Shown here: positions 11,114 through 56,617 of the stretch, in pieces
Position numbering within the stretch: position 1 is the stretch's first letter
Layout: each line of letters starts with the position of its first letter
Origin: Parvibaculaceae bacterium PLY_AMNH_Bact1
Lineage (GTDB): Bacteria > Pseudomonadota > Alphaproteobacteria > Parvibaculales > Parvibaculaceae
Direction: 5' to 3'
Assembly (NCBI GenBank): GCA_032881465.1
Contig: CP126168.1
Span: 2,418,001 to 2,482,000 of the forward strand
DNA: 64,000 nucleotides
Notes under the pieces: generated by a model
Seen by the model: only the letters and a program-made list of their open reading frames with translations
Database searches by the model: none
What the model was told of the DNA's origin: nothing
Translations under genes and position numbers: made by a program

Positions 11114-11193
11114 AAGCGAAACGAAGAGCTTGCAGGGCGACAAAACGCCAGGGAGGCGTTTTGGTGGAGCTAGACGAGCAAACTTTGGGCCCG

Positions 11194-11274
11194 ACCAAGA
11201 CCGCGACTACGGGTCGGGCTTATCGCCCGCCCCCGCAAAGGCGTCGAGCGCAGCAAGACTGCCATGAGCAAAAA
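11194..11274 (+). repeat. Three-hairpin intergenic repeat, copy 1 (diverged)
   Basis: This copy has the same box order as the copies near 52.9 and 55.3 kb: CCAAG, a hairpin around a GACT loop, a hairpin with arms CGGGC (11215-11219) and GCCCG (11225-11229), an AGGCG segment, then GCCATGAGC and a run of A. It follows the dienelactone hydrolase gene and ends directly against the CCA end of the tRNA on the other strand. It is the most diverged of the three copies. Confidence 0.65.
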
Positions 11275-11351
11275 TGGTGGGCCCGGCAGGACTCGAACCT
11301 GCGACCAAACCGTTATGAGCGGTTCGCTCTAACCAACTGAGCTACAGGCCC
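11275..11351 (-). tRNA. tRNA with CAU anticodon, probably tRNA-Ile2 (lysidine type)
   Basis: The minus strand folds into a complete 77-nt tRNA with encoded CCA. Acceptor arms are GGGCCTG and CGGGCCC, the D arm contains GCTC/GAGC, the anticodon loop is CTCATAA, the variable segment is TGGTC and the T arm is GCAGG/CCTGC with TTCGAGT. CAU can be elongator Met or the lysidine-modified Ile2 species. C4-G69 and C5-G68 in the acceptor stem and the TTGGTC junction match the Ile2 pattern recognised by TilS, so Ile2 is favoured. The absence of initiator features excludes tRNA-fMet. Confidence 0.93.
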
Positions 11352-51853: not shown

Positions 51854-52654
51854 ATGACAATTAAGTTTCTTGATCAGGACCCAATCGTCATCAGCAGACG
51901 CAAGCTGGTGCAGGGACTGGCAGCAGGATCAATCGTTGCCGTTGCCGGCTGCGCCCGCAATCAGGCGATTGGCCGCGACCAGCTGCTTCTTGTGTCCGAA
52001 GGCCAGATTGCCCAGATGGCAGCGGCCTCCTGGACCCAGTTGAAGCGGCAAACGAAAATCTCCCAGGACCGTAACCTCAATCGTCGGCTGAATACCGTCG
52101 GCAACAAAATTGTCCAGACTGCGGGTCTGCAAAGACAGCCGTGGGAGTTCACCGTCTTCGATGATGACCAGGCAAACGCCTTCGTTCTGCCCGGCGGCAA
52201 GGTGGGTTTCTACAAAGGCATCTTCAAACGCATGAAAAATGACCACCATCTGGCAACAGTCATGGGTCACGAAGTGGGTCACGTAACTGGCAGGCACGCC
52301 GCTGAACGCTACAGCCAGCAGGTGGCCGCAGGTGTCGTCACCACTGCTGCAGCTGTGGCTCTTGAAGCAGGAGATGTGCGCGGCGGCGCACAGATCGCGG
52401 GCATTCTGGGCCTCGGGGTCCAGTTCGGTATTCTGCTGCCCTATTCACGCCGTCATGAGCTGGAAGCAGACCGGTTGGGCGTCCACTACATGCACCGGGC
52501 GGGATATGACGCCCGTCAGGCTGTTGCCTTTTGGGACAATATGTCTTCGCAGCGCAGCGGCTCGCCGCCGCCGGAATTCATGTCGACCCACCCGTCGGAC
52601 GCCACACGCAAAGCCGCCATTCGTCAGGAATTGCAGCGCTTAGGTCTAACCTGA
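51854..52654 (+). CDS. M48-family metalloprotease, lipoprotein (BepA/YcaL-like)
   Basis: The 266-residue protein has zinc motif H139-E140-x2-H143 (HEVGH) with third ligand Glu202 in HELEAD. The signal has a lipobox VAGC (Cys33) preceded by SRRKLVQG. Envelope M48 lipoproteins degrade misassembled outer-membrane proteins. GGGGAAG precedes the ATG, and a repeat-rich intergenic region follows. Confidence 0.92.
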   Translation: MTIKFLDQDPIVISRRKLVQGLAAGSIVAVAGCARNQAIGRDQLLLVSEGQIAQMAAASWTQLKRQTKISQDRNLNRRLNTVGNKIVQTAGLQRQPWEFTVFDDDQANAFVLPGGKVGFYKGIFKRMKNDHHLATVMGHEVGHVTGRHAAERYSQQVAAGVVTTAAAVALEAGDVRGGAQIAGILGLGVQFGILLPYSRRHELEADRLGVHYMHRAGYDARQAVAFWDNMSSQRSGSPPPEFMSTHPSDATRKAAIRQELQRLGLT

Positions 52655-52770
52655 GTTTTCAAAAGAGCAGCGAGGGAACGCCGCGGCGGAGCGCAATGCT
52701 GAAGGTATTTGCGCGTGAGCAGGAGGAGTCCTCACCCTTCCTCCCCCCAAAACAGGAGGAGAAGGAAGGT

Positions 52771-52809
52771 CCGGTGCACAGGGGGGATACGGGGGAACAC
52801 ATGCACCGG
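52771..52809. repeat. Inverted repeat downstream of the M48 gene
   Basis: CCGGTGCA (52771-52778) and TGCACCGG (52802-52809) are perfect 8-bp arms around a G-rich 23-bp loop. Just before it, CCTTCCTCC and GGAGGAGAAGGAAGG near 52735-52770 form another stem. Together these hairpins may end the M48 transcript; neither has a T-run. No gene is seen in 52655-52853. Confidence 0.5.
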
Positions 52810-52853
52810 TGGGGTAACTTCAGCGATCACCAAAGATGACGTCAGTTAACTGG

Positions 52854-52942
52854 AAACACCCAAGCTCGCGACTGCGAGCCGGGCGGTCAGCCCGCCCTGG
52901 CGGAGGCGGCGGGCACAAGCCCGCCTTGCCGTGAGCCAAAAC
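52854..52942 (+). repeat. Three-hairpin intergenic repeat, copy 2
   Basis: AAACACCCAAG is followed by hairpin 1 (GCTCGC / GCGAGC, loop GACT, 52864-52879), hairpin 2 (CGGGC / GCCCG, loop GGTCA, 52880-52894) and hairpin 3 (GGCGGGC / GCCCGCC, loop ACAA, 52908-52925), then GCCGTGAGC and AAAAC. It ends 10 bp from the stop of the convergent small membrane-protein gene. Compared with copy 3, three pairs in stem 1 and one in stem 2 change on both sides, preserving pairing. Confidence 0.8.
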
Positions 52943-52952
52943 GACTCCCTCC

Positions 52953-53321
52953 TTACATGATCGGCATATAGACAGCCGGTCCACCGAGCGCGACATAAGC
53001 CTCAATGGTGGACGCGATGAAGAGCGCCGCTGCCCAGTTGAGCGCCACGACAAAGCCAAACCACCGAAGCGCGGAGGCAAGGCCAGACCAATTGCTACCT
53101 GCTGAATCAACCGGGTGATCATGATCCCCCAAAGCCGCAAACAACCAGGCGACACCGGAAATTTCAAGCGCCGGAACCACCACCAGCAACCATTCAAATA
53201 CATCCTCGGCGGGGTCGAGCCCCAACCGGTGGACGAGGAACAGGAACAATGCCGCACCCACGGCAATGGTCCGCGCGTGTGTCAGATTGAACAAAGCATC
53301 TCTCTCAAGTTCGATATTCAT
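52953..53321 (-). CDS. Small membrane protein, unknown
   Basis: The 122-residue protein has three to four hydrophobic segments (about 17-33, 42-62 and 83-102). The start MNIELERDALFN is taken at ATG 53321, after an AAGAAG element; an upstream extension is open but polar. No family recognised. A perfect 7-bp hairpin (53349-53366) lies in its leader. Confidence 0.65.
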   Translation of the reverse strand: MNIELERDALFNLTHARTIAVGAALFLFLVHRLGLDPAEDVFEWLLVVVPALEISGVAWLFAALGDHDHPVDSAGSNWSGLASALRWFGFVVALNWAAALFIASTIEAYVALGGPAVYMPIM

Positions 53322-53717
53322 TTTCTTCTTACTCCCGTGCGAGCAGTCGAGCGAAAGGGTTCGCTCCCAACACACGGGAAACTCCTATGCAGTCGTCGTG
53401 ATCGATACAGCCCAGAAGGTGACCACCAAGAAGGCGAACGAAACCCCTCACCGCGACGTCAAAAGTCGCAGAGCCGATGCGCGAACAATCGCGCGTTACA
53501 TCACTGAAAAGCCAAAGCGGAAAACGTGAGGCAGGACGTTAAGCGTACGAACCGACGGACACGTCAATCGCAGGGTTTTTCAGTGTTTGGGAATGAAAAC
53601 AAACCATCTGATCTTCCTTCGATTGTTATCGGGTCACCTTTTGGGGCCATACATACAAAAAGCCCCAACAGGATCTGGTGGGGCTTTGAAAGTGACTTCG
53701 GAAAAGCGCGTGTGCGC
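53322..53717. other. Intergenic stretch with hairpins, no confident gene
   Basis: This holds a perfect hairpin GAGCGAA/TTCGCTC with loop AGGG at 53349-53366 and a bidirectional-looking stem at 53659-53687. A basic open frame from GTG near 53397 to 53529 (about 43 codons, MIDTAQKVTTKKANE...) exists, but it has no ribosome-binding site and no recognisable family, so it is not called. Confidence 0.5.
53659..53687 (-). terminator. Intrinsic terminator on the minus strand
   Basis: AAAGCCCC (53659-53666) and GGGGCTTT (53680-53687) form a perfect 8-bp stem with a 13-nt loop. On the minus strand it continues into TTTTT. It sits 30 bp after the stop of the small minus-strand ORF at 53718-53855. Confidence 0.7.
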
Positions 53718-53855
53718 TTAGTCGCAAAGGAGCCCGCCCCAGGGCTCCGATTGCCAGCCCATAAACGGGCGCCGATATTTTGTGGTCACTGTCATGGGCG
53801 CTTGAGTACACCCGCCATCACGCAACGTCAACAACACTTGTTGTGGTTTTTTCAT
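53718..53855 (-). CDS. Possible 45-residue protein, unknown
   Basis: An open frame starting MKKPQQVLLTLRDGG and ending WGGLLCD. Support is circumstantial: a GGA element 4 bp before ATG, a perfect inverted repeat CTCAAG-ACAAA-CTTGAG (53865-53881) just upstream that could be an operator, and an intrinsic terminator on the same strand 30 bp downstream. It has two cysteines and no membrane segment. It could equally be chance; I know no family. Confidence 0.35.
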   Translation of the reverse strand: MKKPQQVLLTLRDGGCTQAPMTVTTKYRRPFMGWQSEPWGGLLCD

Positions 53856-53985
53856 TTCATCCGTCTCAAGACAAACTTGAGCGCAATGTGTGATGCAAGA
53901 GTCACAGATGATGAAGAGAGACTGAAGACGCCACCTCACACAAGAAACACAAAGTTAGGCGCCCAAGCTCGCGACAAAATAGAAG

Positions 53986-54080
53986 CCGTCACCCTCGGAC
54001 TTGTTCCGAGGGTCCAGGGGCTAAACATAAAGACCTTTGCTTGTCGCTCCTGGATTGCCGGAACAAGTCCGGCAATGACA
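53986..54080. repeat. Alphaproteobacterial dispersed repeat (TTGCCGG...CCGGCAA type), copy 1
   Basis: This begins CCGTCACCCTCGGA with a perfect CCCTCGGA/TCCGAGGG hairpin and ends with a 32-bp segment (54049-54080) containing ATTGCCGG-ACAAGT-CCGGCAAT. The last 32 bp are identical to 55195-55226. Such elements are common in alphaproteobacterial intergenic regions. A 14-bp piece of the three-hairpin repeat (53962-53975) precedes it. Confidence 0.8.
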
Positions 54081-54178
54081 ACAGAGGTAAACACCTCCAC
54101 CCAAAATCCCCTTGCAACACCCTCTTCTACCCATCACGCTCTTCTCAAAGAAACAAAAGACCACCGGAGGGAACGAAC

Positions 54179-54976
54179 ATGGCAACGAATGCAAACTGTT
54201 GGGGTGATGAAACAGAATATGATTTCAACGACCTCACCGCGAAGCTCAACCAATACTTACGATTGAGAACCAACCCCGTCGCCATGAAACGCTTTGCGAC
54301 TGAAGCGGATCTCGACGCCATTCCGAAACTCCGACGTCCAGCCGACGGCCAATTAATGGCGACGGACCAGATTGTCGGTCAGAGCCGGTGGATCGGCTAC
54401 ACCATCGGCGTCACCATGAAAAACCTGATGGGCCAGCAATGCGGCGCCGTTGTCGGCCTTACCGCGCGCGATGAGGAGTTTCTCGATGGCAAACGCTTCC
54501 ACGGTGTCTGGTATGGCGACCTGGAAGGAAGTGCGGAGCACCAGCGCGAAATGTCCTGCGCACCTCATGGCGACTATGAAGCGCTCGTCACCTCGCCGCT
54601 CATTTCAGGGCGCATCGACAATCCGGATATCTGCCTCATCTATGGCACGCCGGGTCAGATGATTACGCTGATGAACGGCCTGCAATACAAGAACTACAAA
54701 AAGTACACCTTCACTTGTGTCGGCGAGAGCTCCTGCTCAGACTCATGGGGCAATGCGCTGAAGACCGGTGAGCCCTCCATGTCCATCCCCTGCTATGCGG
54801 AACGCAAGTTTGGCGGCGTGCAGGATGATGAAATGCTGATCGCCCTGCCGCCCAAATTCCTGCCCCAGATCGTCGACGGCCTCGCCGCGCTCTCTAAGAA
54901 CGGCCTCCGCTATCCGATCCCCAACCACGGCATCGACAAGTCTCCCATGGCCAGCATCAACCAGAGTTATGGGTGA
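54179..54976 (+). CDS. DUF169 family protein
   Basis: The 265-residue DUF169 protein, of a family seen in bacteria and archaea without established activity, has an N-terminal YLRLRTNPVAMKRF segment typical of the family, a cysteine-rich stretch FTCVGESSCSDSWG, and ISIPCYAER-like motif SIPCYAERKFGG. The conserved Cys/Ser cluster suggests metal, cluster or corrinoid-related binding, unproven. ATG 54179 has GGAGGG 8 bp upstream. It stands alone and is flanked on both sides by copies of the same dispersed repeat. Confidence 0.85.
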   Translation: MATNANCWGDETEYDFNDLTAKLNQYLRLRTNPVAMKRFATEADLDAIPKLRRPADGQLMATDQIVGQSRWIGYTIGVTMKNLMGQQCGAVVGLTARDEEFLDGKRFHGVWYGDLEGSAEHQREMSCAPHGDYEALVTSPLISGRIDNPDICLIYGTPGQMITLMNGLQYKNYKKYTFTCVGESSCSDSWGNALKTGEPSMSIPCYAERKFGGVQDDEMLIALPPKFLPQIVDGLAALSKNGLRYPIPNHGIDKSPMASINQSYG

Positions 54977-54982
54977 GCACGC

Positions 54983-55087
54983 CCATGGTTCGAGACGGCG
55001 CTCACGCACCTCCTCATCATGAGGCTTGCGCGTCAAACAAATCCCTCATCCTGAGGAGCGGTCGTAAGACCGCGTCTCGAAGGATGG
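54983..55087. repeat. Second dispersed repeat family, two copies in inverted orientation
   Basis: Copy a (54983-55024) starts CCATGGTTCGAGACG and ends CTCCTCATCATGAGG. Copy b (55044-55087), read on the other strand, has the same ends (CCAT-cc-TTCGAGACG ... CTCCTCAggATGAGG) around a perfect GCGGTC/GACCGC hairpin. This resembles a well-known alphaproteobacterial intergenic repeat. Confidence 0.75.
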
Positions 55088-55100
55088 CGCCACACACAAA

Positions 55101-55226
55101 CCGTCACCCCCGGACCCACGGGTCTGGCTTCGCCAGCCCGAGCACAAGCTCGTCCGGGGGTCCAGGGCCGAATTGCTGGAAAGAGGTTCCAAACCCTGGA
55201 TTGCCGGAACAAGTCCGGCAATGACA
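55101..55226. repeat. Alphaproteobacterial dispersed repeat (TTGCCGG...CCGGCAA type), copy 2
   Basis: This begins CCGTCACCCCCGGAC, with a 9-bp CCCCCGGAC/GTCCGGGGG outer stem and inner hairpins, and ends with the 32-bp segment 55195-55226 identical to that at 54049-54080. Same orientation as copy 1, so the DUF169 gene lies between direct repeats about 1.1 kb apart. Confidence 0.8.
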
Positions 55227-55273
55227 GCTGAGGGTGGGTCGGGCTGCAGAGAGATGATCCGAAAAACCAGAGC

Positions 55274-55360
55274 AAACACCCAAGGCCACGACTGTGGCCC
55301 GGCCGGTCAGGCCGCGCCCGCGCAGGCGGTGAGCAACGCGAACTCGCCGTGAGCGAAAAC
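55274..55360 (+). repeat. Three-hairpin intergenic repeat, copy 3
   Basis: AAACACCCAAG is followed by hairpin 1 (GGCCAC / GTGGCC, loop GACT, 55284-55299), hairpin 2 (CGGCC / GGCCG, loop GGTCA, 55300-55314), a third imperfect stem (GGCG...GAG / CTCGCC), then GCCGTGAGC and AAAAC. It ends 15 bp from the stop of the convergent aminotransferase gene, the same placement as copy 2. Confidence 0.8.
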
Positions 55361-55375
55361 AGCCTTCCGTGAGCC

Positions 55376-56617
<1,242 letters not shown>

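Follow-up and report, generated by a model that had tools for sequence, protein, structure and literature searches.

The window analysed here, a 64,000-nt stretch of a Parvibaculaceae genome (contig CP126168.1), contains a short intergenic repeat in three copies, which raises the question of whether such an element is a functional structure kept at gene 3' ends or a mobile repeat. The copies, located by a preliminary description of the DNA, were indeed present and belong to one 85-nt repeat family at positions 11192–11276, 52857–52943 and 55277–55361, all on the + strand. Two covariance models were used: R1, built from these copies and a fourth from the same genome, and R2, a second model. Copy 1 comprised a core of three hairpins (H1-H2-H3) and scored 88.6 bits with R1 and 66.3 bits with R2 (E = 2.3e-18); copies 2 and 3, core elements as well, scored 79.8 bits (E = 8.2e-23; fold z −3.8) and 91.6 bits (E = 1.0e-26) with R2. 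The two-hairpin pattern matched the window twice, at copies 2 and 3, and gave no match in 100 shuffles. The surroundings of the copies agreed with what had been described. The 3' end of copy 1 touched, in antisense, the 3' end of a tRNA-Met gene (11275–11351, minus strand; ARAGORN and Rfam RF00005), and copies 2 and 3 stopped 10 and 15 bp, respectively, short of the stops of convergent minus-strand genes, namely a called 140-aa ORF with no Pfam match (52953–53375) and a class I/II aminotransferase gene (55376–56590; Pfam PF00155).

The genome consists of one contig of 3.74 Mb, and searching it by pattern revealed the fourth copy at 2494136, about 21 kb past copy 3 and beyond the window. A genome-wide covariance-model search, as the preliminary description had suggested, added two copies at 3562155 (E = 3e-16) and 3474839 (E = 2e-11), neither of which was part of the R1 model that detected them. 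By the covariance model, this genome contains six good copies, two of which touch tRNA genes (tRNA-Met and tRNA-Thr(CGT)), and complete genomes of sister species contain 7–8 copies each. All six good copies share the + strand and span 2.43–3.56 Mb, which places them in the second half of the chromosome, and the good copies of sister genomes G002 and G003 are likewise all on one strand; the independent loci are too few to interpret in either case.

On the + strand, the element reads CAAG-H1-H2-H3-GTGAGCNAAAA over about 85 nt, and its 5' end in a 28-copy alignment is CACCCAAG. H1 has six pairs and the loop GAC+N, and H2 has the form CGG...CCG with variable inner pairs and loop, followed by a C-rich joint to H3. 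H3 is two-tiered: the outer stem (CGC/GCG, GGC/GCC or GTT/AAC) leads to a conserved internal loop, with GNA on its left side and GTGA on its right, and then to an inner stem, followed by a bulge (T or A) and a GC hairpin that is commonly closed as GA-GC-NNN-GC-GA; GTGAGCNAAAA lies 3' of H3. This internal architecture of H3 is a detail beyond the preliminary description. In copy 2, H1 is GCTCGC-GACT-GCGAGC (52864–52879, + strand; helix 1 was 97% paired in alignment A3) and H2 is CGGGC-GGTCA-GCCCG (52880–52894, + strand; helix 2 was 95% paired), whereas H3 (52899–52937, + strand), delimited from sequence, fold and A3, has the outer stem GGC/GCC, the internal loop GGA/GTGA, the inner stem GGC/GCC and a GC hairpin with bulged TT.

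Covarying secondary structure, as in structured non-coding RNA, was present in two alignments. In A3 (28 copies, at least 25 from this genus and the remainder from one distant genome), 88.7% of cells were paired compared with 30–39% in slid controls, and the covariation score was 0.477 compared with 0.04–0.11. For A7, 49 diverse copies from many families were aligned blind to structure; the corresponding values were 86.6% versus 29–42% and 0.496 versus 0.04–0.10, with 213 doubly changed cells; RNAalifold, run unaided on A7, recovered H1, H2, the outer stem and the lower inner stem. With pairing and covariation far above slid controls in both alignments, the structural selection proposed for the element is strongly supported. 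Analysis of stem departures in 135 sequences, which are related and not independent, revealed 89 G.U and 29 A.C cases (26:5 in H1). A double-stranded cruciform would be expected to give equal numbers; therefore selection seems to act on the + strand in single-stranded form, whether as RNA or as ssDNA.

The comparison of copies 2 and 3, the first sign of this selection, needs a different reading. Three pairs of stem 1 (GCTCGC/GCGAGC versus GGCCAC/GTGGCC) and one pair of stem 2 (CGGGC/GCCCG versus CGGCC/GGCCG) are changed with pairing kept, and the loops GACT and GGTCA are unchanged, as had been noted. However, these double changes are not four separate in-place events; since alleles of H1, H2 and H3 have been recombined across loci and species in this genus, they reflect a few old hairpin alleles, and independent covariation comes from the class-wide alignment. 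In this genus the element occurs as a solo core, at orthologous sites common to up to five species. Five sister species have kept it at two orthologous spacers, the aminotransferase one and the LolA-side one, and the 3' end of the aminotransferase gene bears an element in all five of G000–G004.

Decay of copies was also seen. The 14-nt fragment of the element's 5' end at 53962–53975 (+ strand), pointed out earlier, is a real relic by sequence and sister-species comparison, since whole copies occupy the equivalent site in G001 and G002; it lies upstream of a DUF169 gene, and G003 has the identical relic followed by a REP pair, as here. A second relic that had escaped the preliminary description, with H1 and H2 deleted, lies at 52648–52727 (+ strand; G000 2470648–2470727; E = 0.0013), and its intact version is found in G003. 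Other palindromes are present nearby: CTCATCCTGAGGAGCGGTCGTAAGACCGCGTCTCGAAGGATG, at 55044–55086, is of a kind that we take to be common in Alphaproteobacteria. CGTC-type palindrome pairs (GTCACCCTCGGACTTGTTCCGAGGGTCCAGG / CCTGGATTGCCGGAACAAGTCCGGCAATGACA) at 53990–54087 and 55103–55233 resemble alphaproteobacterial CGTC REPs (PMC3733652), one pair directly following the 53962 relic. At the tRNA-Met locus, sister species gave no clean empty site, the flanks being unalignable and different in every species, and no locus pair compared among relatives gave a true, alignable empty site. The 3' flank of this tRNA (L226–L237) is unrelated in nearly every sister species, a pattern like that of an integration hotspot; it contains a divergent element in G006 and, in G002 and G005, what may be short 3'-end relics.

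To place the family more widely, we used R2 at a cut-off of E 1e-4, which matched 37 of 385 sampled alphaproteobacterial genomes from more than 20 families; copy counts in this class search are lower bounds, with the best 11 candidates per genome scored, and deeper candidate scoring gave top counts of 56, 48, 37 and 31 per genome. The phylum-wide sample of 398 genomes contained 20 that matched, all of them Alphaproteobacteria and none outside the class. The carriers named by a pattern scan were Hyphomicrobiales MAGs, Anderseniella and BMS3Bbin10, and one carrier MAG was labelled Gammaproteobacteria, which may be mislabelled or misbinned. Rfam searches of the window and 20 other loci returned nothing at the gathering threshold except tRNAs; the nearest family was Chloroflexi-1 (RF01698), at 18.1 bits against a cut-off of 80 and for one copy only. 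BLAST gave no match to plasmids for copy 2 or the consensus and no match to phages for the consensus, and IMG/VR contained a few copies, in contigs called viral. One such contig (L196, UViG_2623620426_000010) has several copies of H1-H2 only, with no H3 (e.g. GGCCGCGACTGCGGCC-CGGCCGGTAGGCCG), in both orientations and some exactly at TCATGA gene ends. No account of the element was found in the literature as judged by titles and abstracts, with subscription journals sparsely covered, and one may exist elsewhere.

Comparison of gene orientation at the same loci, with crude gene calls based on ORFs from a simple script, showed that 76 of 137 gaps containing the element were convergent (55%), compared with 51 of 257 others (20%; Fisher p = 1.7e-12). 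Next to tRNA 3' ends there are 22 copies, every one in antisense; the distance is −2 to +3 nt for 21 and 32 nt for the remaining one, and the copies involve seven isotypes (Met, Thr, Phe, Leu, Ala, Ser and Arg) and at least eight families. Clustering at gene 3' ends, which the preliminary description had proposed to check, is strongly supported by the excess in convergent gaps and by the tRNA 3' ends. In co-directional spacers, the element strands were split 25 to 24, with no consistent strand relative to protein genes.

In other genomes the core forms part of larger units. In BMS3Bbin10, G322 and HKST-UBA48, near-identical units of 147–152 bp (about 18 in BMS3Bbin10 and 20 in G322) hold it flanked by two extra hairpins; they have inverted hairpin ends reading TAGAGCG, TA at both ends and YTAR context (flanks Y|TA...TA|R). 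TA-bounded ends are expected of IS630/Tc1-type MITEs, and these ~150-bp units have been recently amplified in Hyphomicrobiales. G254 and G342 contain head-to-tail tandem arrays of 82–94-nt units, including four exact 85-nt units in G342. No TA-bounded unit ends were seen at the window copies, and a flank hairpin scan at a loose threshold gave nothing informative compared with control windows. The divergence of core and ends in recent units was inconsistent between genomes: it was 1.4% in the core versus 4.2% in the unit ends of BMS3Bbin10, where the loci, like those of HKST, were picked via an exact core 24-mer, and 4.6% in the core, 4.7% in the left arm and 9.8% in the right arm of G322, where lower core divergence is not clear.

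Of the explanations considered, the most likely, with about an even chance of being right, is that we are dealing with an old mobile repeat, non-autonomous and class-wide, and that a protein recognises its folded single strand. The conserved structure, the selection of one strand, multi-copy dispersal, recent near-identical units, arrays, and placement in convergent gaps and at tRNA ends support this. Copies, those at tRNA ends and solo ones included, would be spread by transposases acting in trans, presumably IS630/Tc1-like in the case of the TA-bounded units. The core structure would be kept since the protein recognises a folded single strand, which may be RNA or the ssDNA present during replication or transfer. 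Within this genus, copies would be mostly ancestral, swapping hairpins among themselves and decaying. The suggestion of a mobile palindromic repeat is supported in part, by the dispersed, near-identical TA-bounded units and the tandem arrays elsewhere, but no mobilising enzyme was linked to the element in the genomes searched. Against mobility, no clean empty site was obtained, and copies within one genome are mostly strongly diverged, unlike those of a recently active family. Single-strand selection and the core of BMS3Bbin10 being less variable than the ends would also fit a per-copy function.

Such a function is at the centre of the strongest rival, which we regard as possible and clearly the less probable: that the core acts at the RNA level, within trailers and antisense RNAs of gene and tRNA 3' ends, where the structured RNA or domain would serve protein binding, stability or RNA processing, and that it merely hitch-hikes on MITEs. 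The 3'-end processing element named in the preliminary description belongs with this rival. The single-strand structure with its tolerance of G.U, the invariant loops and the GNA/GTGA internal loop, class-wide conservation at diverged loci, the placement at 3' ends, and the persistence of the element at the two orthologous spacers, aminotransferase and LolA-side, all fit this explanation. However, the even strand split in co-directional spacers, the free decay of copies, and promoter and terminator signals at chance level count against an RNA role. Moreover, the structured strand is antisense to the tRNAs, which would leave the tRNA transcript with its weaker complement; for copy 3, the fold z of the minus strand was the weaker.

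The tRNA ends bear on two further explanations, both of which we hold to be improbable and to a similar degree. In one, the core itself is a self-standing mobile unit that would move as a folded single strand (ssDNA or an RNA copy) and insert directly behind the tRNA CCA in one orientation, with vehicles such as the TA-MITEs as secondary ones; if true, such folded-strand insertion at tRNA ends would give small bacterial repeats a new mode of transposition. In the other, a site-specific integrase would have inserted the element as a cassette at tRNA 3' ends, and a degenerate copy of the tRNA end would remain on the other side. The left flank resembles the matching tRNA 3' end in L074, L109 and L148 (p ≤ 0.003 versus shuffles), and L109 has unit-by-unit arrays, as an integrase cassette would predict; however, this resemblance is missing at most tRNA-abutting copies, and most copies are not at tRNAs. 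Integron attC sites were rejected as well: the end boxes are unlike RYYYAAC/GTTRRRY as judged from sequence, and the copies are dispersed and conserved at orthologous loci, not cassettes.

It is very unlikely that a RAYT tyrosine transposase mobilises H3 as a REP, in which a GNAG tetranucleotide precedes an imperfect GC hairpin. Nearly all members do have GGAG, GAAG, GCAG or GTAG immediately 5' of an imperfect hairpin, the tag being mostly GGAG rather than GTAG. However, 19 of the 27 genomes searched, nearly all of them carriers and including the genomes with 56, 48 and 17 copies and this genus, have no Y1 gene (PF01797), and RAYT loci, where present, carry no good element and are not flanked by one, so this search yielded no partner for the element; REPs are also 20–40 bp in length, without H1 and H2. 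An intrinsic or bidirectional terminator, suggested by GC hairpins between convergent genes and by the preliminary mention of a terminator-like RNA, can be dismissed almost entirely because of the anatomy of the element, with no T-run (U-run in RNA) after the hairpin on either strand, AAAA at the + strand end, and none of the five terminator-like sites in 52600–55600, itself a number at chance, overlapping copies 2 or 3.

The family is class-wide, strongly covarying and absent from Rfam, and marks tRNA 3' ends and convergent spacers; its covariance model is usable as a ready annotation aid for Alphaproteobacteria. The element is a testable case of either small mobile DNA selected for its structure or a new RNA element of 3' ends, and its single-strand signature lets ssDNA-based mobility and RNA function be tested directly against each other.

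Among known systems, TA-ended MITEs (IS630/Tc1-mariner) are like the ~147–152 bp units of BMS3Bbin10, G322 and HKST-UBA48, whereas the copies in the window and in many other families are the core alone without MITE ends, and no transposase is linked to them. Rhizobial RIME/ABC mosaic elements are intergenic and palindromic, with exchangeable modules, and the element, compared by description, resembles them in being intergenic, palindromic and modular. Homology to these rhizobial mosaic repeats was rejected, R2 finding nothing above chance on 50 kb of S. meliloti pSymB. Rfam Chloroflexi-1 shares a GC-rich stem-loop only as a likeness, far below the cut-off. REP/GTAG and CGTC repeats (PMC3733652), the latter without known transposase, are also small, intergenic and palindromic, and H3 bears a GNAG tag; in contrast to both, the element has no RAYT link and is distinguished by its 85-nt length, three hairpins, single-strand covariation and head-to-tail arrays.
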